The notes under the pieces were generated by a model. It ran no database searches. It was not told the origin of the DNA and saw only the letters and a list, made by a program, of their open reading frames with translations. DNA of 64,000 nt from an uncultured SAR86 cluster bacterium. Lineage in GTDB: Bacteria > Pseudomonadota > Gammaproteobacteria > Magnimaribacterales > Magnimaribacteraceae. The stretch is taken from positions 1-64,000 of the forward strand of contig CACOVO010000005.1 in assembly GCA_902630715.1 (NCBI GenBank), in the 5' to 3' direction. Made by a program: the position numbers and the translations under genes. Shown here in pieces: positions 2-19,829 of the stretch. The first letter of the stretch is position 1. The number at the start of each line of letters is the position of its first letter.

Positions 2-3000
2 GGGATTATTGATGATTCCCTAGACGAATCAAACGAGACAGTAATTGTCACCTTATCGAATCCCAGTAATGCAACCTTGGGTAGCGATAAAGTACACACC
101 TATACCATCACCGATAACGACAGCGCACCAGTTATAGACTTCAATGCTACCAGTTCAAGTGGAGCTGAGTCTGTTTCTTCCAAAGCTATTACAGTGGATT
201 TATCTGCAGCATCTAGTCAAGATGTAACCGTTGACTATGCTGTTACTGGTACCGCAACAGGATCGGGTACAGATTACACCTTAGCCAACGGAACTCTATC
301 TATAAGTGCGGGGTCAACCTCAGGAACCATCACCATTGCCAGTATTGTTAATGACTCCTTAGATGAAGACAATGAGACTGTCGTTTTGACTCTATCTAAT
401 CCAAATAACGCAACAGTGGGCAGTGATAGTGTTCACACTTATACCATCGATGATAATGATGATGCATCAGTTGTCGATTTTAATACCACCAGTTCGAATG
501 GAGCTGAGTCAGTTTCTTCCAAAACAATTACGGTAGACTTATCTTCAGTTTCAGCAAAAACCGTTACTGTTAATTATGCTTTGTCTGGTACCGCAACAGG
601 ATCAGGTACTGATTACACTCTCGGAAGCGGTACACTTACAATTAATGCTGGATCCTCAACTGGCACAATAACCATCGCAAGTATAGTTGATGACTCCATA
701 GACGAAGCAGACGAAACTGTTGTATTAACATTGTCTAACCCAAGTAATGCAACTTTGGGCACTGACAGCATTCATACCTACACTATCAGTGATAATGATA
801 ATACTCCAACCATTGAATTTAATGCTTCTAGCTCAAGTGGAGATGAATCTGTATCTTCCAAAGCCGTCACCGTAAATTTATCTGGACCTTCGAGCGATAG
901 TGTAACGGTCGATTACGCAGTCACTGGAACGGCTACCGGGTCAGGAACAGACTATAATCTTGTTAACGGGACTTTAAGTATTTCTGCTGGCAACACAACA
1001 GGCACAATTACTATTGCAAGTATTGTTGACGATGATGAGGATGAAACAGATGAGACGGTAGTCATTACTTTATCTAGCCCAAGCAATGCAACCCTAGGAA
1101 GCAGTGATGTTCATACTTACACGATTGCTGATGACGATGGTTTACCTACAGTCGATTTTAATAGAACAAGTACAACTGGTGCTGAAGATATATCGTCGGT
1201 TGCCTTAACTGTTGACTTGTCAGCAGCTTCGAGTAATGACATTACTGTAGATTACGCCGTCACAGGCACAGCCACAGGCTCTGGAACCGATTACACTCTT
1301 GCAAATGGCACCTTAACTATTAGTGCAGGTGCAACTTCCGGAGCTATTTCAATAGAGGGAATTGTAGATGATGATCTTGATGAGGCTGATGAGACAGTCA
1401 TTGTTACTTTATCGAACCCAAATAACTCTATTCTTGGAAACGATAGTGTACACACTTACACTATTAGCGATAATGATGGTATTCCAGCAGTAGGATTTTC
1501 TTCTTCAACTTCAACTGATTTAGAATCCGTCTCCACAAGATCAATATCTATTGGTATTCCTTTTGCAACTGCTTCAGAAATTCAAGTTGATTATTCAGTT
1601 TCAGGGACCGCAACAGGCGCTGGAGCAGACCACACAATGTCATCTGGCAGCGTTTCTATCGAAGAGGGCGCAACCACTGGAACAATAGTCATAGATTCGA
1701 TTATTGATGATTCGGATGATGAATCTGATGAAACATTAATCATCACCTTATCAAATCCAACCGGTGCCGTCCTTGGAAATAGCATAGTTCATACTGCCTT
1801 CATCACTGACAATGATGATCCTCCGGTTATTAGTTTTGATAGCACAAGTTCAAGTGGAGATGAGGCAGTTTCTTCAGCAGGTTTGACTGTTGTTTTAGAC
1901 TCTAGATCCAGTCAAAACATAACAGTTGACTACGCAATCTCTGGAACTGCAACTGGATCAGGTGAAGATTACACACTTGGCGCCGGAAAACTAACTATCA
2001 ATGCGGGCGAAACAAGCGGCACCATTACCATAGCAAGCATTATTGATGATCCGTTCGATGAACCTGATGAAACGGTAATTATTACTTTATCTAATCCTGT
2101 TAATGCAATTCTTGGCACTGACATTACTCACACTTTCACAATTAGTGACAATGACACAACTCCGACCGTTAACTTTAATACCCCAGCTTCTAACGGTGAT
2201 GAATCTATAACCTCTGTAGCTTTAGTTATAGATTTATCTGTCGCACCTAGTCAAAATGTGACAATTGACTACTCTGTTACTGGTACCGCTACAGGTTCTG
2301 GTACCGATTACACTTTATCCGATGGAACGATCACGTTAAGTGCTGGCGAAACAACCGGAACACTTTTTATCACCGATATTGTTGATGATATGTTGGATGA
2401 AGAAAACGAAACAGTAATTGTTTCCTTATCAAATCCAACTAATGCAACTTTAGGGACTGATAATGTCCACACTTATACCATTAACGATAACGATAATTTA
2501 CCTGCTGCAGATTTTAATATTATCAGCTCTGAAGGTGATGAGCCGTCGCCATCGATAAATATTACTGTTGATATATCTGAGATATCTGGAAAACAAATAT
2601 CAGTAGATTATAAATTGACAGGTACAGCAACTGGTTCAGGAACTGACTACAACTTAGAAGATGGAACTTTAATAATAGATACCGGCGAAAATAACGGAAA
2701 TATAACAATTCCAGGCATTATTGATGATGACCTTGCCGAGGACGATGAAACAATTATTATCACATTATCCAATCCAACAAATGCAGTCCTGGGTGTTGAC
2801 AATGTTTATACTCATACGATTTTAGCTAATGATGATGATAAAAGACCCAACTTAATAGCAACCAAACCTCAAGATGACAGCACCAGGGTCCCTATAAATA
2901 GCGATATTATTTTGACGTTTAACAAAGCTGTTAATTGTGAATCAGGCAGCATAAATATTGAGTCTGAAAATAATACTTCCTCTTATACCGTAAGTTTCCC

Positions 3001-4927
3001 AAATGAAATTGTGACAGGTTGCGGTACAGAGAATATAACCATTAATCCACCCACGGATTTAGAGTATGAAACTGAATATTATGTATTAATTGATAATACT
3101 GTATTTGAGGACGAATTAGGAAACTCTTATAAAGGTATTAGCGACAAAAACGAGTTTAATTTTAAAACACCCATCGAATTGACCGATCCTACCTTAAAGC
3201 AGCCCGTAATCGATAACGCAAGAGCTATGCTACAGATTGCAACACGATGGGTAGATCAAAATGTTAATGTAATTTCCAAACGTTTGAAAACTGCCTCGCG
3301 GGAGGGTTTGAGAGGGTTAAAGGTTAATTTTGACAATAAGATACTTGATACAGTTAAAACCCTTGGTTCGAGTGAGTCTGAAGATAAATTCGTAGAGGAG
3401 CCAATAATAGAGTTATGCACTATCAATTCTAGTGGCCCTAAAACTGATCAATCTCTAAAGATAAAAGTTCATTTATCTAAAATCGCACCTGATGACATTG
3501 CTGTTAATTTCAACATCACCGGCTCATCAGATAAAGAAAATTTTTCCTTTGGCGAAGGGATATTAAATATTGAGGCTGGGCTAAAATCTGCCATTATTAT
3601 TATCGATGGTATTCCACAAAATAAATTTGGTTTTATTAAGGGAGATAGGAAAATTTTTGTGACCCTTTTAGATTCTTCAAATGCGCGATTAGGCGATAAT
3701 TTGGTTTATACCCATACTCTAACAGAGGATCCAAAAGCATGGACTGACCCTAACGAAAATTATTTCTGCATATCAAATTTTGATATTCCTAAATTATCAA
3801 CACCTATAGCTGCTTATTCCTCCTATAACCTTTATAAAGTTGTGACCAAACCCCAATTCTATAGCCAGAATACCGAAGGCTACAAACAAAATGCCACTCA
3901 AGGCTTTGGAGATAATAATTCTGATATCCAAATTTCTAATATAACTAATGACCAAGAAGAGGCTGACAGTTCTCAAAGTTTACAGCAATTAGAATCCACC
4001 GCAAAAGAATGGGTATCGGATCCTGTGAAAGTAACAGCTGATGGGGAATTAAGAGAACTCATTGGAGATTGGTCAGTATGGATTGATGGAGAATTTGGAG
4101 AATTTACTCTTCGCAAAAATAGGCAAAGTACAAGAATTCTGGACGAAAGATCTTTTCATATAGGCATCGATAGATTAAATGACGATGGAGATTTATTTGG
4201 TTTTGCTTTAGGTTTAGGAGAAGCCAAACCGCTAAATAGAAATCAGGTCTCTAATGTAGAGTCTAAAAATTATAGCCTTTCAACGTACGGGAAATTCGAT
4301 GGTGAGGGAAGTGCCTTACAATTTATTCTTGGGATCAGTAAATTAGAATTCGACTCAGACCGAGTGGATGGAGAAGAGCTTTTAAAAGGCCAACGAGAAG
4401 CAAAACAAATGTACGGATCCTTGGCGCTTATTCGTTCATTTAGTAATGAGTCGAGTAATTGGCTCATTTCTCCGTATTTTAGGATTGATGCTTCATACAC
4501 AGAGTTTGATAAATATAGAGAAATAGGCGGCGAGACCGCACTCACTTTTGATGAGCTGACATTATCAAATGTTAAGGCATCAATTGGAACAGATATCAGT
4601 TACCTATTTGTAGGATCTAAATATAATTTAATGCCATATATAACCTTAGAGTACGGCATAGATTATTCTGAAACTTCTAATCAAAATATGTATTACAACT
4701 CTGAGGGGCCCAACATAAATTACATATTACAGCTGGATGATGGAGTGAAAGCTCATAATTGGGAAGTTGATTTAGGATTAGTGCTTGAAATTACACCGGA
4801 CATGACCACTAATCTTGGTTGTAGATGGCAAGGCAGATCTAGCTACTCATCTGATTACTCAAGCATTTCTATTAATGACCTTTCGCAATCAGAAATTTGT
4901 TTTCTTGAGTTAATGTTGAGTCTTTAA
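2..4927 (+). CDS. Giant Calx-beta repeat autotransporter adhesin (5' end outside window)
   Basis: The reading frame is open from base 2, so the gene begins upstream; the TTG at 77 is only the first start-like codon inside it. Seen in order: tandem Calx-beta repeats (each with a TATGSGTDYTL-like core and an acidic D-DE-DET turn) to about 2840; a Big_5-type Ig-like domain at about 2843-3173; a helical linker; one degenerate Calx-beta unit at about 3400-3730; a spacer; and a C-terminal autotransporter-like beta-barrel from about 4010 to the stop. Calx-beta domains bind calcium and build long surface fibres in large secreted proteins. The barrel predicts outer-membrane anchoring by type V secretion. 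The final residue is Leu rather than the more usual Phe. Ligand and cellular role are unknown. Adhesion is inferred from architecture. Confidence 0.85.
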   Translation, partial: GIIDDSLDESNETVIVTLSNPSNATLGSDKVHTYTITDNDSAPVIDFNATSSSGAESVSSKAITVDLSAASSQDVTVDYAVTGTATGSGTDYTLANGTLSISAGSTSGTITIASIVNDSLDEDNETVVLTLSNPNNATVGSDSVHTYTIDDNDDASVVDFNTTSSNGAESVSSKTITVDLSSVSAKTVTVNYALSGTATGSGTDYTLGSGTLTINAGSSTGTITIASIVDDSIDEADETVVLTLSNPSNATLGTDSIHTYTISDNDNTPTIEFNASSSSGDESVSSKAVTVNLSGPSSDSVTVDYAVTGTATGSGTDYNLVNGTLSISAGNTTGTITIASIVDDDEDETDETVVITLSSPSNATLGSSDVHTYTIADDDGLPTVDFNRTSTTGAEDISSVALTVDLSAASSNDITVDYAVTGTATGSGTDYTLANGTLTISAGATSGAISIEGIVDDDLDEADETVIVTLSNPNNSILGNDSVHTYTISDNDGIPAVGFSSSTSTDLESVSTRSISIGIPFATASEIQVDYSVSGTATGAGADHTMSSGSVSIEEGATTGTIVIDSIIDDSDDESDETLIITLSNPTGAVLGNSIVHTAFITDNDDPPVISFDSTSSSGDEAVSSAGLTVVLDSRSSQNITVDYAISGTATGSGEDYTLGAGKLTINAGETSGTITIASIIDDPFDEPDETVIITLSNPVNAILGTDITHTFTISDNDTTPTVNFNTPASNGDESITSVALVIDLSVAPSQNVTIDYSVTGTATGSGTDYTLSDGTITLSAGETTGTLFITDIVDDMLDEENETVIVSLSNPTNATLGTDNVHTYTINDNDNLPAADFNIISSEGDEPSPSINITVDISEISGKQISVDYKLTGTATGSGTDYNLEDGTLIIDTGENNGNITIPGIIDDDLAEDDETIIITLSNPTNAVLGVDNVYTHTILANDDDKRPNLIATKPQDDSTRVPINSDIILTFNKAVNCESGSINIESENNTSSYTVSFPNEIVTGCGTENITINPPTDLEYETEYYVLIDNTVFEDELGNSYKGISDKNEFNFKTPIELTDPTLKQPVIDNARAMLQIATRWVDQNVNVISKRLKTASREGLRGLKVNFDNKILDTVKTLGSSESEDKFVEEPIIELCTINSSGPKTDQSLKIKVHLSKIAPDDIAVNFNITGSSDKENFSFGEGILNIEAGLKSAIIIIDGIPQNKFGFIKGDRKIFVTLLDSSNARLGDNLVYTHTLTEDPKAWTDPNENYFCISNFDIPKLSTPIAAYSSYNLYKVVTKPQFYSQNTEGYKQNATQGFGDNNSDIQISNITNDQEEADSSQSLQQLESTAKEWVSDPVKVTADGELRELIGDWSVWIDGEFGEFTLRKNRQSTRILDERSFHIGIDRLNDDGDLFGFALGLGEAKPLNRNQVSNVESKNYSLSTYGKFDGEGSALQFILGISKLEFDSDRVDGEELLKGQREAKQMYGSLALIRSFSNESSNWLISPYFRIDASYTEFDKYREIGGETALTFDELTLSNVKASIGTDISYLFVGSKYNLMPYITLEYGIDYSETSNQNMYYNSEGPNINYILQLDDGVKAHNWEVDLGLVLEITPDMTTNLGCRWQGRSSYSSDYSSISINDLSQSEICFLELMLSL
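95..2806 (+). repeat. Eight coding tandem repeats of exactly 339 bp (Calx-beta)
   Basis: The conserved His (or Tyr) codon of the V-H-T-Y-T-I motif starts at 95, 434, 773, 1112, 1451, 1790, 2129, 2468 and 2807. Every spacing is 339 bases (113 residues), with no insertion or deletion. Sequence between copies varies mainly at third positions and loop residues. This fits an old tandem duplication under length constraint, or repeat homogenisation. Confidence 0.95.
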
Positions 4928-8529: not shown

Positions 8530-8928
8530 ATGAGAACAACACAAGAATACTCTGACAAAACAGCGATAAGCCTATCCGTGATTTGCTTGTTGCACTGTTT
8601 GCTCATGCCTTCCTTTCTTGTGCTTCTCTCAGGATATATATCCCTTTCTTACAATAATGAATTAATACATTACGCCATTTTGTTTATAGCAATACCAATA
8701 AGCGTTTATGCCCTTCTAACTGGGGCAAAAAATCACAGGACCTTCACTTACCTAGTTATTGGACTGATAGGGCTTTCAGCCTTGATTATTGCAGTCACAC
8801 TAGGCATTCAGCTATGGGGCGAGTTTGCTGAAAAGTCACTTACTTCAATAGGGGCAATCTTAGTAGCCTTTTCTCATTTTAGAAATTACAAACTTTGTAG
8901 AGAAGCCGACTGCGATACCTGTCACTAA
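8530..8928 (+). CDS. MerC-domain inner-membrane protein
   Basis: A 132-residue protein with four predicted membrane segments. Transmembrane helix 1 carries the cysteine-containing CLLHCLLMP motif typical of the MerC family, and the C-terminus has a Cys/His cluster (C-R-E-A-D-C-D-T-C-H). MerC was named from mercuric-ion uptake, but many chromosomal MerC-domain proteins occur without mer genes and their metal is unknown. No merA, merT or merR lies nearby, so mercury resistance should not be assumed. Metal handling is a reasonable but untested role. Confidence 0.75.
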   Translation: MRTTQEYSDKTAISLSVICLLHCLLMPSFLVLLSGYISLSYNNELIHYAILFIAIPISVYALLTGAKNHRTFTYLVIGLIGLSALIIAVTLGIQLWGEFAEKSLTSIGAILVAFSHFRNYKLCREADCDTCH

Positions 8929-15014: not shown

Positions 15015-15458
15015 CTAGTTTACTTGAAATACTTCAAAACTCAGTGTTCCCGCCATGAGGTCCACTTTACCTTGGGCGTGATTTATCACTCCGTTGTTAA
15101 GCGAGTCGAAAGAATACATAGTTACTATCTTACCTTTTCGAACCCAAGAACCTTGAAGTGAAGCGTATTGCATCTCTCCGTCTTCATTTATGGTTCTAGC
15201 TTGGCCTGAAAATTCTCCAGACATACCGTCATCACTGTTCACAGTAAAGTTATGTGTTAAGTAAACTTTTCCGTATCCCTCTCCTACGGTTCCTTCTGAA
15301 GTTATTGTACTTCCGCCTTCTTTCGCAATCCATGACGTCATTTCAAAGTTTGCTGGGAAGCTCTCTCCAGATACATCAAAAGAGAAGAGATTTGATGAAC
15401 ACAGAATAGAAACAGAAGTGAATAACCCAATTAGAGCGTTTTTTATAATCTTAATCAT
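15015..15458 (-). CDS. Small exported protein, paralogue of the gene at 16170
   Basis: 147 residues with a clear N-terminal signal peptide (lysines then a hydrophobic run to about residue 26). The mature part starts with S-G-E-S-F and contains GGSTITSEG and YGKVYLTHNF; the gene at 16170 has K-G-E-S-F, GGTITVSSE and YGKVFLTYNV in the same order. The shared beta-strand-rich pattern shows common descent. I do not recognise a named family. It lies downstream of a lipoprotein gene on the same strand (18-base gap), so the products may work together in the periplasm. Confidence 0.65.
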   Translation of the reverse strand: MIKIIKNALIGLFTSVSILCSSNLFSFDVSGESFPANFEMTSWIAKEGGSTITSEGTVGEGYGKVYLTHNFTVNSDDGMSGEFSGQARTINEDGEMQYASLQGSWVRKGKIVTMYSFDSLNNGVINHAQGKVDLMAGTLSFEVFQVN

Positions 15459-16169: not shown

Positions 16170-16592
16170 ATGAAATTTTTGAAACTTGGCTTAGCAATAA
16201 TTTTATCTGCGACCTTTTCTCTATCTATTTTCTCTCACGATCCAAAAGGGGAATCTTTTTCTTTGTCTGGCAAAATTACTTCAATAGAGCTTACCGTCGA
16301 CGGCGGCACCATAACTGTTTCATCTGAAGCAGGAAGGTATGGAAAAGTCTTCCTAACTTATAATGTTAAGTTAAACCCATCTTTACCAAATCAGGGATAT
16401 TTTTCTGGAAGAGGAGTTGGATTTAACGATGGTGTAAGACAGGCTGGATCCAGACAAGGGGTATTTAGAAGAGAGGGTTCGATAATGAAGTTCTGGTCAC
16501 TGGATGACGTGACAGATGGAAATATGAACTATTGCGAGACGGTAATGGATTTAGAAACTGAGACAGTTGAAATGACCTTTTATCCTTTCTAG
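16170..16592 (+). CDS. Small exported protein, paralogue of the gene at 15015
   Basis: 140 residues; ATG 16170 follows an AAAGGAG ribosome-binding site, so an in-frame start at 16116 is rejected. A signal peptide of about 22 residues precedes a mature domain beginning at or near DPKGESF. It shares the ordered motifs GESF, GG(S)TIT, YGKV(F/Y)LT(Y/H)N and FSG with the protein encoded at 15015. The two genes are on opposite strands around a lipoprotein gene. Function unknown. An intrinsic terminator follows directly. Confidence 0.65.
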   Translation: MKFLKLGLAIILSATFSLSIFSHDPKGESFSLSGKITSIELTVDGGTITVSSEAGRYGKVFLTYNVKLNPSLPNQGYFSGRGVGFNDGVRQAGSRQGVFRREGSIMKFWSLDDVTDGNMNYCETVMDLETETVEMTFYPF

Positions 16593-16603
16593 GACAAATA
16601 TTG

Positions 16604-16630
16604 AAAGCCCTCCATTAGGAGGGTTTTTTT
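16604..16630 (+). terminator. Rho-independent terminator
   Basis: The stem CCCTCC (16608-16613) / GGAGGG (16618-16623) with loop ATTA is followed by seven T (16624-16630) and preceded by a matching A run. It ends the small exported-protein transcript, so the mannosyltransferase operon needs its own promoter or read-through. Confidence 0.9.
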
Positions 16631-16642
16631 AATGAGGAATCT

Positions 16643-17986
16643 ATGACATCAATAATTGGGAATTGGCAGATAATTCTTATTTTGCTTATCGGAGCAGCAT
16701 TAAGGTTTTATAATCTTGGATTCATCCCTGGCCCTATATTTGATGAAGTCTTCTATCCCGATTTTGCTTTAAGTTATCTCAAAGGAGAACCTTTTTTTTC
16801 AGTTCATCCACCTCTTGGTTCTTATATATTAGCGTTTGGAATATACATTTATGATTTAATCCCCTGGGCAGAGGGAATTGATCTTTCTTCGGCTCAATTA
16901 GATCAAATTAATCCACTGTCTTTCCGCTGGATAGGCGCTTTAGCTGGGGTTATTCTTATTTATGTAGGTTATAAGTTGGCAATCGAGATGCTTGATCAAA
17001 GGTTCTTTGCTCTTTTAGTTGCTCTATTTTTGGCTCTTGATGGATCATTAATGGTTGACTCACGAATAGGCATTATAAATATCTACTTATGTTTATTTGG
17101 TTTCATGGCTATTTTATTTTTCGTGAAGGGATTAAAAAATTCTGAGCACGGATCTTTAATTGTTTCAAGTTTCCTTCTTGGAGCTGTCATCTCAGTAAAG
17201 TGGAACGGATTGGGTTTTTGGTTAACCTTACTTTTATTTTCCCTTTTATTTTTCTTCTTAAGCAGAAAGCAAACTAGTTTTGATTATAAATATCAAATCT
17301 CAAAAATTGCCTCCTTTGTGATTTATTTTTTTGCACCTTTTTTTATTTATCTATTATTTTGGCTACCTGAGATATTTGATAGTGAATATTCATTGATTGA
17401 TAAACATTTCCAAATGATTTCTTATCATTTTGAAAATGCAGACCAAAAAGACCACCCTTACAGTTCACCTTGGTACACCTGGCCTTTTATGATCCGCCCG
17501 ATTGGCTACTTTTTTGATTCTGAGACACTTGTCGGTGAAGATGGGTCTTTTATTGAATTTTATAGCGCAATACATCTCTTGCCCAATCCTGCACTATCTC
17601 TTCTTGCATTTTGTGCAGTAATTATTTTGACATTTAAATGGATTGATACATTAGCAAGACCGGCGAGTAGTCTTAGGCTCTCAAAAGATACATATGCAAT
17701 CAGCCTCATACTATTGGGGTACTATTCAAATTTTTTACCATGGGCTATTGCATCTAGGTCAACATTTATTTATCACTACCAACCTGCTGCAGTTTTTTCA
17801 TTTTTTGCCCTAGCATTTCTTTTACATAAACTTTTTATTAAAAATAAATTCGAAAATAAGCTTCTCTATTATTTTGCATTATCCTTAATATGCATATCGG
17901 CAATTTACTGGCTTCCTATTCATTTAGGCCTTGAGATAACCAGTGAGAATTTTTATTCTAGGATGTGGTTTAGCTCATGGATATAA
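16643..17986 (+). CDS. Protein O-mannosyltransferase family (PMT, GT39) membrane enzyme
   Basis: 447 residues with around ten hydrophobic segments. PMT hallmarks are in the expected order: Asp34-Glu35 in the first periplasmic loop (GPIFDEVFY), then HPPLGS (His55), DSRIGI, GAVISVKWNGL and a PWYTWPFMIRP region matching the PMT_4TMC part. PMT enzymes use polyprenyl- or dolichyl-phosphate-mannose to mannosylate Ser/Thr of proteins during or after Sec export. A sugar-lipid transferase of the wider GT-C group is the main alternative. The 3' end overlaps the donor-synthase-like gene by ten bases, which supports a paired function. AGGAA lies before the ATG. Confidence 0.75.
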   Translation: MTSIIGNWQIILILLIGAALRFYNLGFIPGPIFDEVFYPDFALSYLKGEPFFSVHPPLGSYILAFGIYIYDLIPWAEGIDLSSAQLDQINPLSFRWIGALAGVILIYVGYKLAIEMLDQRFFALLVALFLALDGSLMVDSRIGIINIYLCLFGFMAILFFVKGLKNSEHGSLIVSSFLLGAVISVKWNGLGFWLTLLLFSLLFFFLSRKQTSFDYKYQISKIASFVIYFFAPFFIYLLFWLPEIFDSEYSLIDKHFQMISYHFENADQKDHPYSSPWYTWPFMIRPIGYFFDSETLVGEDGSFIEFYSAIHLLPNPALSLLAFCAVIILTFKWIDTLARPASSLRLSKDTYAISLILLGYYSNFLPWAIASRSTFIYHYQPAAVFSFFALAFLLHKLFIKNKFENKLLYYFALSLICISAIYWLPIHLGLEITSENFYSRMWFSSWI

Positions 17987-19104
17987 GCTCAACGAAAACC
18001 GAGCAAAGAGCCTGCTTTGTACTTCCCACTTTTAACGAAGAAGGCAATATTGAGAATGTTATTAAAAAAATATTTGAATCAGAAGATGAGCAGAGTTCGT
18101 ATGATTTTTCAATATTAGTGGTTGATGATAATTCTTTGGATGATACACAAAGCATTGTTAAGCGCCTTATAAAATCAAATAATAAGATTCACTTAATAAC
18201 GGGAGAGAAAAAGGGTCTAGGAGAGGCTTACAAGAGAGGTTTTAAATATGCTATTGATGAATTAAACACAGACTTGATTTTCCAAATGGATTCCGATGGG
18301 CAGCATGATCCCAACATCATACCGAATTTTTTAAAAGTGATAGATGAGGGAAAGGATGTTGTAATTGGATCTAGATTCACCGAAGGTGGATCAACACCCG
18401 ACTTTTCTTTTTCTAGGCTGCTGATTAGCAGGATTGGTAATCTCCTGGTTAGGTATGTAGGCGGCATTACTCATGTTAAGGACTGTACCTCTGGTTACAG
18501 AGCAATCAATGTATCTTATTTAAAGGAAGTTGATTTTAGTTATTTGTCTACGAAAGGCTATAGCTTTCAATCTTCTTTGATATGCGATCTTGCATGGAGA
18601 GGTGCAGAGATTTCAGAAATTCCTATCGTATTCAGTTCACGTGAATCTGGTGATTCAAAACTCTCTTTAAGAGATCAAATTGAATTTTTACTAAACATCC
18701 CAAAACTTGGTTTTCGGAATTTGAAAGACTTTATTAAATATTCCTTAGTAGGATTCTCCGGAGTCATTGTAAATCTTGGTCTCTATACATTTTTAACTAG
18801 AATTTATAATTTTTCTGAACTAATAGCCCCAATTATTTCCATCGAAACAGCCTTAATATCAAATTTTATCTTGAATAATTTTTGGACCTTTGAAAGGAGG
18901 TCAACTCAAAGCAGAATCCGAGTAAAATTTCTTAAGTTTCATTTGGTAAGTGGTCTTGCTGCAGTTATAAATTATGTCGTCTTCTTGTCGCTATTCGTAA
19001 CTTTTGGGGTTCATGATATTTTTGCTAACTTAATAGGTATAGTATTTGCGGCAATTGCGAATTATCTTATTAACTCTAATTGGACCTGGAAGGAAAATAC
19101 ATGA
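17977..19104 (+). CDS. Polyprenyl-phosphate mannose synthase (DPM1-like GT2) fused to GtrA domain
   Basis: 375 residues. The first 240 form a GT2 domain close to dolichol-phosphate mannosyltransferases: VLPTFNEEGNI, VVDDNSLDDT, the metal site D105-S-D107 in QMDSDGQHDP and a GSRFTEGG segment. From about residue 245 a four-helix GtrA domain follows, ending near W-T-W. GtrA proteins are thought to help polyprenyl-linked sugars cross the inner membrane. The product could supply the mannosyl donor for the PMT gene, which overlaps its start by ten bases. It overlaps the next gene in an ATGA arrangement. Sugar identity is inferred. Confidence 0.85.
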   Translation: MDISSTKTEQRACFVLPTFNEEGNIENVIKKIFESEDEQSSYDFSILVVDDNSLDDTQSIVKRLIKSNNKIHLITGEKKGLGEAYKRGFKYAIDELNTDLIFQMDSDGQHDPNIIPNFLKVIDEGKDVVIGSRFTEGGSTPDFSFSRLLISRIGNLLVRYVGGITHVKDCTSGYRAINVSYLKEVDFSYLSTKGYSFQSSLICDLAWRGAEISEIPIVFSSRESGDSKLSLRDQIEFLLNIPKLGFRNLKDFIKYSLVGFSGVIVNLGLYTFLTRIYNFSELIAPIISIETALISNFILNNFWTFERRSTQSRIRVKFLKFHLVSGLAAVINYVVFLSLFVTFGVHDIFANLIGIVFAAIANYLINSNWTWKENT

Positions 19105-19829
19105 GAATTTATAAATTTTTATTAGTTTATATTTTTGGCACACTTATTTCGTGCAGCGAAATTAAAGAGCCATCTTTGAAAAACTTTGTTATCCAAGATG
19201 ATGTTTTCAAATCTGGAATTTCTCTAATTGACCTTCCATATGGTTTGCATGATCTAGAAGATACTTCTCTGGACCAAAGCACTCTAATAGTTGGAGTACA
19301 TGGAAGTAATAGTAGAGGATATGAATGGGTATATCCTTTATTAACTCTCGATGAGGAAACTAATCTAGTTTCCTTCTTCCGCTGGGATGATAATAATTGT
19401 CACGGTTCATCGTCGTCTTTTTTACTTGAGACGATTAAAAGGAAATTAGTTGAATCTCCGAAGATTCAAAAAGTTGTCATTTATGGTCATAGTTACGGCG
19501 GAATATTGGTGGCCTCCCTTTTGGAAGAATGGAATTTACAAATTCCTCTTTTAGCAAATGCAATAGCAGCTCCGCTCAAGGGTATGGACCAACTTTCGGA
19601 GGCCTGTGATTACAAACCTCTTGCTTCTGTAAAAACTGGGACAAGACTACATCAATGGAGGACAATTAAGAATCTGGATGGAGCTTTTAAGGATCTGGAT
19701 TACGATCCACAAAATGCAGAAATAATGGGAAGCCAAGTAACCAGATTACCAAAAACATACAAAGGTAAGAAATTAGGACATAATTGGTCTATCAGCTGGG
19801 TGGCAGACGAAATTTCCAACACAAAGTAG
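19101..19829 (+). CDS. Lipoprotein alpha/beta hydrolase
   Basis: 242 residues. ATG 19101 overlaps the previous stop (ATGA) and starts a short signal with lipobox LISC (Cys18), so the product should be a membrane-bound lipoprotein facing the periplasm. The hydrolase core has GVHGSNSRGYEW and the nucleophile elbow GHSYGG (Ser131). A late GHNWS His can complete the triad. Such proteins may be lipases or esterases. Coupling to the two glycosyltransferase-type genes suggests a cell-envelope role, which is inference only. Confidence 0.7.
   Translation: MRIYKFLLVYIFGTLISCSEIKEPSLKNFVIQDDVFKSGISLIDLPYGLHDLEDTSLDQSTLIVGVHGSNSRGYEWVYPLLTLDEETNLVSFFRWDDNNCHGSSSSFLLETIKRKLVESPKIQKVVIYGHSYGGILVASLLEEWNLQIPLLANAIAAPLKGMDQLSEACDYKPLASVKTGTRLHQWRTIKNLDGAFKDLDYDPQNAEIMGSQVTRLPKTYKGKKLGHNWSISWVADEISNTK

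Follow-up and report, generated by a model that had tools for sequence, protein, structure and literature searches.

Actinobacteria use the enzymes Pmt and Ppm1 for protein O-mannosylation, and the eukaryotic protein O-mannosyltransferase (PMT) subfamilies PMT1, PMT2, and PMT4 possess a lumenal MIR domain that is located between transmembrane segments TM7 and TM8. This modification has been studied almost solely in eukaryotes and Actinobacteria; in the latter, bacterial enzymes of glycosyltransferase family 39 (GT39) glycosylate secreted proteins, and what free-living bacteria gain from O-mannosylation is an open question (PMC11727336). Outside the Actinobacteria, the GT39 enzyme Cbes_1864 of Caldicellulosiruptor (556 amino acids), located near its target CelA, is required for the glycosylation of secreted proteins (PMC6151902); it is likened to the protein studied here by description. 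A "GT39-like" gene of Edwardsiella was annotated by BLAST and CAZy only (PMC9998210). Here we analyze a stretch of 64,000 nucleotides from an uncultured SAR86 cluster bacterium (contig CACOVO010000005.1, positions 1 to 64,000), referred to as the window, in which a PMT gene overlaps a gene for a synthase composed of a glycosyltransferase family 2 (GT2) and a GtrA domain. This overlapping pair, which follows the same enzyme-pair logic as the actinobacterial Pmt and Ppm1, is probably a complete unit for the lipid-sugar-dependent O-glycosylation of proteins, organized as a two-gene cassette for the strain-variable modification of envelope proteins.

Identification of a predicted protein O-mannosyltransferase

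The first gene of the pair matched the Pfam families PMT (5e-25, 88.9 bits; cut-off, 22.7) and PMT_4TMC (3e-30, 105.7 bits; cut-off, 32.4). Among 14 control genomes, PMT_4TMC was found only in Corynebacterium glutamicum, which is an O-mannosylating species, whereas Escherichia coli, which possesses ArnT, and Bacillus subtilis had no match. We then compiled 32 PMT homologues from Gammaproteobacteria, cyanobacteria, and Verrucomicrobia; they were gathered by motif, so that the sample favors close kin. When a profile of these sequences was compared to the Protein Data Bank (PDB), the only matches were the four solved fungal PMT sequences (3e-39 to 1e-30). An AlphaFold2 model of the protein (pLDDT of 89, pTM of 0.92) aligned with Pmt4 and Pmt2 with Z scores of 36 to 39, over 411 to 420 residues at 2.6 to 2.8 Å, and all top structural matches were PMTs. 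ArnT and other lipid transferases share the GT-C fold, but the match to ArnT was lower (Z score of 25.8). On the basis of both PMT domains and of this fold ranking (Z of 39 versus 26), we consider the gene to encode a genuine PMT of family GT39 with a predicted protein O-mannosyltransferase activity, as proposed in a preliminary description of this locus. An assignment to ArnT or to an undecaprenyl sugar transferase, which that description named as the finding that would speak against it, is excluded, since both domain content and structural ranking favor a PMT.

With the fungal and animal enzymes Pmt1, Pmt2, and Pmt4, the SAR86 protein has in common the two PMT domains, the fold over approximately 415 residues, the DE motif, and the residues that bind the phosphate of dolichyl phosphate (Dol-P). 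It differs from them in its length (447 versus approximately 800 amino acids), in its sequence (18 to 22% identity in the structural alignment), and in the MIR domain, for which there was no Pfam match; the model holds just a beta-hairpin at residues 287 to 312. Another, much larger GT39 architecture was noted in two other Gammaproteobacteria (loci L032 and L037 of genomes G210 and G424), which have an open reading frame (ORF) of approximately 1,250 amino acids with a distant PMT C-terminal domain.

Active site and clade signature

To map the active site, residues of Pmt4 from Chaetomium (ctPmt4) reported in PMC12705809 were transferred by alignment. Residues H105, K244, R666, and H672, which hold Dol-P in ctPmt4 (PMC12705809), correspond to H55, K186, R372, and H378 of the SAR86 PMT and are nearly or fully invariant in the 32 homologues. 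Residues F83, D84, E85, and F669 correspond to F33, D34, E35, and F375, and all eight positions are conserved in 28 to 32 of the 32 sequences. The DE motif of PMTs is situated in the first periplasmic loop. It is required in the PMT of C. glutamicum (PMC11727336).

Three observations weigh against the proposed O-glycosylation unit. (i) ctPmt4 H87 is replaced by F37, and 31 of the 32 homologues have Phe or Tyr at this position. (ii) ctPmt4 D197 is replaced by N146, and Asn is present in 32/32 homologues. (iii) The protein reached 30.1 bits with the NCBIfam equivalog of bacterial Pmt, NF058602, which has a cut-off of 800, and it is therefore not filed under that family. Three actinobacterial PMTs, which are plasmid-borne sequences, have Asp at the position of N146. 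Since Asn is found in all 32 homologues and Asp in the fungal and actinobacterial PMTs compared, the gammaproteobacterial/cyanobacterial clade has a signature of its own. Compared to the Pmt of Mycobacterium tuberculosis and C. glutamicum, the SAR86 PMT shares the DE motif and differs by N146 in place of Asp and by H378 in place of Tyr. The N146 signature could serve to test whether PMTs need their proposed metal site.

The change of H87, on the acceptor side, and of the proposed metal ligand D197 across the whole clade would also be compatible with a GT-C transferase that acts on a non-protein acceptor, such as lipid A, a glycolipid, or a surface polysaccharide, and GtrA/GT2 pairs frequently serve in O-antigen modification. 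We regard such an acceptor as unlikely, given that PMT_4TMC is present here and unmatched in the ArnT-bearing E. coli, that the fold is by far closest to that of PMTs, and that F33, D34, and F375, on the peptide side, have been conserved. The Caldicellulosiruptor enzyme, as a GT39 protein from outside the Actinobacteria needed for protein glycosylation (PMC6151902), also argues for a protein acceptor.

The partner gene encodes a PfDPMS-like synthase

The second gene matched the Pfam families Glycos_transf_2 (5e-27) and GtrA_DPMS_TM (1.5e-25). Its product aligned end to end with the dolichyl-phosphate mannose synthase (DPMS) of Pyrococcus furiosus (PfDPMS, 5mlz; 8e-50, residues 11 to 372, corresponding to 362 residues). 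The GT2 domain alone was much closer to PfDPMS (3.5e-26) than to the glucosyl enzyme GtrB/sll0501 (1.4e-6). Thirteen PfDPMS residues that bind the nucleotide, metal, sugar, or lipid phosphate (PMC5526996) were mapped by hand on this alignment, and 11 of them are identical in the synthase and invariant in the SAR86 set. These are E12, D39, D89, D91, Q93, and H94 (E21, D51, D105, D107, Q109, and H110 of the synthase) as well as R117, R131, S135, R202, and K208 (R133, R147, S151, R222, and K228). The synthase thus has the DxDxQH motif, the Arg/Ser acceptor site, and the C-terminal membrane domain that characterize a PfDPMS-type enzyme. The remaining two residues, F177 and K178, are Tyr and Ser, respectively.

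The match to PfDPMS and the intact catalytic residues bear out the proposal that the PMT is partnered by an enzyme resembling polyprenyl-phosphate-mannose synthases. The preliminary description had further emphasized the fusion of the donor synthase to a GtrA domain; this is a known layout that, judging from the sequences, was not invented at the SAR86 locus, since PfDPMS shares it end to end. What sets the SAR86 enzyme apart from PfDPMS are the exchanges K178S and F177Y, the bacterial host, and the overlap with a PMT gene, whereas its differences from the actinobacterial arrangement of Pmt and Ppm1 are the C-terminal GtrA domain and, again, the overlap.

From the homology and the intact catalytic residues, we infer that the GT2 domain would load polyprenyl phosphate with a hexose at the cytoplasmic face of the membrane; this hexose would most probably be mannose, supplied by GDP-mannose. 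The GtrA domain would anchor the synthase and may help the lipid-linked sugar to cross the membrane. At the periplasmic face, the PMT would then transfer the sugar from polyprenyl phosphate to Ser/Thr residues of exported proteins, as suggested by its fold and its conserved lipid-phosphate site. Envelope proteins are thus likely to be modified in a manner that varies between strains.

The transferred sugar

The genome to which the window belongs encodes a 414-amino-acid GMP-PMI (6e-97) side by side with a glucose-6-phosphate isomerase (PGI), as well as two proteins of the PGM/PMM family, which makes a supply of GDP-mannose plausible. Several further data weigh against the proposed unit. (i) K178 of PfDPMS, which is close to the sugar, is Ser in the synthase. 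(ii) In the SAR86 family, GMP-PMI was present in 5 of 15 genomes with the pair and in 7 of 20 without it (Fisher P = 1); it was thus rejected as a co-inherited partner of the pair. (iii) In four PMT-containing metagenome-assembled genomes (MAGs), the only sugar nucleotidyltransferases were MurU-like and GlmU-like. Since GMP-PMI does not track the pair and these four MAGs have no GMP-type gene, some genomes may use a sugar other than mannose, or the corresponding islands may be missing from the incomplete MAGs. A MurU-like nucleotidyltransferase gene was seen at L129:485-2163 (G000:C2) together with a 338-amino-acid gene in the AmgK position, a locus that resembles that for cell wall recycling in Pseudomonas.

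The same machinery could accordingly attach glucose or another hexose, from UDP-glucose (UDP-Glc) or a different nucleotide sugar, to exported proteins. Apart from the distribution of GMP-PMI and the several PMT-containing genomes that show no GMP gene, this would be in line with the NCBIfam comparison, which places the GT2 domain nearest to AglJ but not as an equivalog match, and with PfDPMS itself, which also accepts UDP-Glc and GDP-Glc, albeit with lower activity (PMC5526996). We nevertheless judge another sugar to be rather unlikely: the PfDPMS residues D89 and H94, which contact the mannosyl O2 and O3, are invariant in the SAR86 set, the GT2 domain is closer to PfDPMS than to GtrB/sll0501, GMP-PMI and PGI are encoded next to each other in the window's genome, and the genomes that lack a GMP gene are incomplete. 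Mannose is, in our assessment, the reasonably likely substrate.

Distribution and horizontal exchange of the pair

In all of the 14 PMT-bearing SAR86 relatives (14/14), the PMT and synthase genes adjoin. They are neighbors, usually overlapping, in SAR86, in SAR92/Porticoccaceae, and in a few other marine Gammaproteobacteria; as this adjacency recurs in several lineages, the arrangement is not due to chance. A second arrangement of the three functions was observed in Thiotrichaceae and Cellvibrionaceae, where the PMT gene adjoins separate GT2 and GtrA genes; the GT2 proteins at these loci (L059:4068-5449, L060:9338-10706, and L066:11140-12533) are only distantly related to that of SAR86. It looks as if the donor supply for PMT had been recruited more than once. 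The pair is rare, as had been supposed: PMT_4TMC scored above its cut-off in 4 of 369 sampled gammaproteobacterial genomes including the window's own (3/368 others). We found no PMT homologues in phage records, and the plasmid-borne PMTs were distant actinobacterial ones only. A literature search returned no description of the pair in either SAR86 or SAR92; this proves little, as the search did not extend to most papers behind subscriptions.

A PMT tree, the check that the preliminary description had suggested, placed the gammaproteobacterial sequences and one Verrucomicrobia MAG in a single group (support of 98). Two groups of cyanobacteria are separate from it, and the three actinobacterial sequences are distant; the root of the tree is unsure because the actinobacterial outgroup is long-branched.

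The pair was present in 15 of the 35 genomes of the family. An intact site without the pair, with the flanks in order, was identified in ten genomes, eight of which are of the window's genus and one each of the genera g4 and g5. When mapped on a tree built from six flanking genes, the pair changes between presence and absence at least seven times. The most direct comparison is that of genomes G008 (with the pair) and G016 (without it), whose sequences agree at 96% almost to the end of the upstream gene. Identity stops after base 8533 of 8534 of this gene, so that the junction is its stop codon; an unalignable segment of approximately 3 kb follows, which comprises PMT, the synthase, and most of the adjacent hydrolase gene, and 94% identity then resumes. 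The terminator-like stem upstream of the pair also differs between the two genomes. Furthermore, the flanks assign genome G033 to genus g4, yet the pair and hydrolase of this genome are of the g1 type, and a single g4 clade was rejected in the approximately unbiased (AU) test (P = 8e-10). The pair of genus g5 is found at another site, between an MFS and the rlmN gene, and groups with the SAR92 pairs; a single SAR86 clade was rejected as well (AU test, P = 0.0009).

The trees show that the pair was transferred between SAR86 genera and between the SAR86 and SAR92 lineages. The empty sites, the block replacement in G008/G016, and the trees that conflict with the flanks indicate horizontal movement, and the pair is directly seen to be an exchangeable two-gene presence/absence cassette, one evolutionary unit. 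We saw no enzyme dedicated to mobility next to it. Part of the transfer took place by the replacement of a short block, presumably via flanking homology.

The surrounding stretch is variable in gene content. The gene for a membrane protein of approximately 199 amino acids, without Pfam match and absent from the window, lies just upstream of PMT in a number of relatives, and one empty site (G003) has it as well; its loci are L020:7391-7990, L023:7942-8538, L030:2490-3089, and L108:6949-7590(-). A gene for an M20 peptidase (487 amino acids) is variably present between the hydrolase and MFS genes (L023:11758-13221, L103:5102-6565, and L108:4695-6158(-)), and the MFS gene is missing in G005, G011, and G018.

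Neighboring genes and layout of the locus

The preliminary description had counted the downstream lipoprotein hydrolase as a member of the module. Its matches to alpha/beta-hydrolase Pfam families were weak and below cut-off, and in the PDB its profile retrieved nothing beyond weak, generic similarities to lipases and esterases. The overlap of four bases with the synthase gene, and the exchange of the hydrolase allele along with the pair in G005/G008 and in G033, would suggest an operon of three genes whose hydrolase either processes or is modified by the O-mannosylation system. The distribution makes this very unlikely. The hydrolase is present in 28 of 35 family genomes and the pair in 15 of 35; it stands alone at empty sites, occurring without the pair in nine relatives for which the locus was read, and the pairs of SAR86 genus g5 and of SAR92 have no adjoining hydrolase. 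We thus rejected it as part of the O-mannosylation unit: it is a near-core gene that is kept when the pair is absent, and its co-exchange is due to linkage. The hydrolase of G005/G008 groups with other PMT-containing lineages and not with that of the nearest kin, G011/G016 (L019 8534-11592, reverse complement, versus L107).

The window also encodes a Calx-beta repeat autotransporter (positions 77 to 4927) with eight Calx-beta stretches and an autotransporter domain at residues 1356 to 1580, which had been put forward as a target of the PMT. Of the 35 family genomes, 13 have Calx-beta domains, the repeat numbers being highly variable. The adhesin was found in 3 of 15 genomes with PMT and in 10 of 20 without it, a tendency in the opposite direction (Fisher P = 0.09). 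Being more common in the absence of PMT, it is not a dedicated target, and the co-occurrence claim was rejected; in the window's own genome, it could nonetheless be modified. Of the module as first described, then, the PMT, its pairing with the synthase, and its rarity stood up, whereas the hydrolase and the adhesin did not.

The features of the locus are compiled in Table 1. The PMT and synthase genes overlap by 10 bases and the synthase and hydrolase genes by 4 bases, in agreement with the initial annotation. The hydrolase start is an ATG; the TTG listed at 19080 is a mechanical extension of the ORF. The stem that follows position 16592 was seen by eye only and was not listed by a terminator scan. 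The closest named relatives are SAR86 single cells and MAGs, in which the gene order at the locus is identical. Two small secreted proteins upstream, at 15015-15458(-) and 16170-16592(+), share a similar pattern (GESF...YGKV.LT) and lie on either side of a 211-amino-acid lipoprotein; none of the three matched a Pfam family.

Table 1. Features of the SAR86 locus, in window coordinates
Feature	Position	Strand	Remarks
PMT gene	16643..17986	+	447 aa, ATG start; predicted GT39, multi-pass membrane protein without MIR domain
GT2 + GtrA-domain putative polyprenyl-phosphate-mannose synthase (PfDPMS-like)	17977..19104	+	375 aa, ATG; starts within PMT gene
Lipoprotein alpha/beta hydrolase, neighbor outside the pair	19101..19829	+	Lipobox LISC, GHSYG; near-core SAR86 gene
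DE motif, PMT active site (codons 33-36, FDEV)	16739..16750	+	F-D-E invariant, 32/32 homologues
Codon 146 (Asn) of PMT, ctPmt4 D197 in alignment	17078..17080	+	Clade signature; D197 is the proposed second metal ligand
Insertion point of the pair, short spacer after upstream stop	16593..16642	+	Terminator-like stem CCCTCC..GGAGGG, then T
Upstream flank marker, 140-aa secreted protein	16170..16592	+	Borders cassette in SAR86 genera g1 and g4 (synteny)

Significance

Systems of this kind are already known; what is new is the lineage in which the pair occurs, its N146 signature, and, most importantly, its presence/absence exchange among genomes that are nearly identical. A tentative possibility, which we consider doubtful but worth stating, is that abundant uncultured marine Gammaproteobacteria horizontally exchange a self-contained protein O-mannosylation cassette, the PMT of which belongs to the gammaproteobacterial/cyanobacterial clade and has a remodeled metal/acceptor site (Asp to Asn, His to Phe/Tyr), and that this cassette toggles the mannosylation of surface proteins between near-identical strains, for instance, as a defense against phages or grazers. 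It is speculation that the advantage of the surface modification concerns phages, grazers, or protease resistance. SAR86 offers a natural experiment, with strains that are approximately 96% alike around the locus and that have or lack the pair. The comparison of such strains with respect to surface proteins, phage sensitivity, and abundance in metagenomes bears on the question of what purpose O-mannosylation serves in bacteria.

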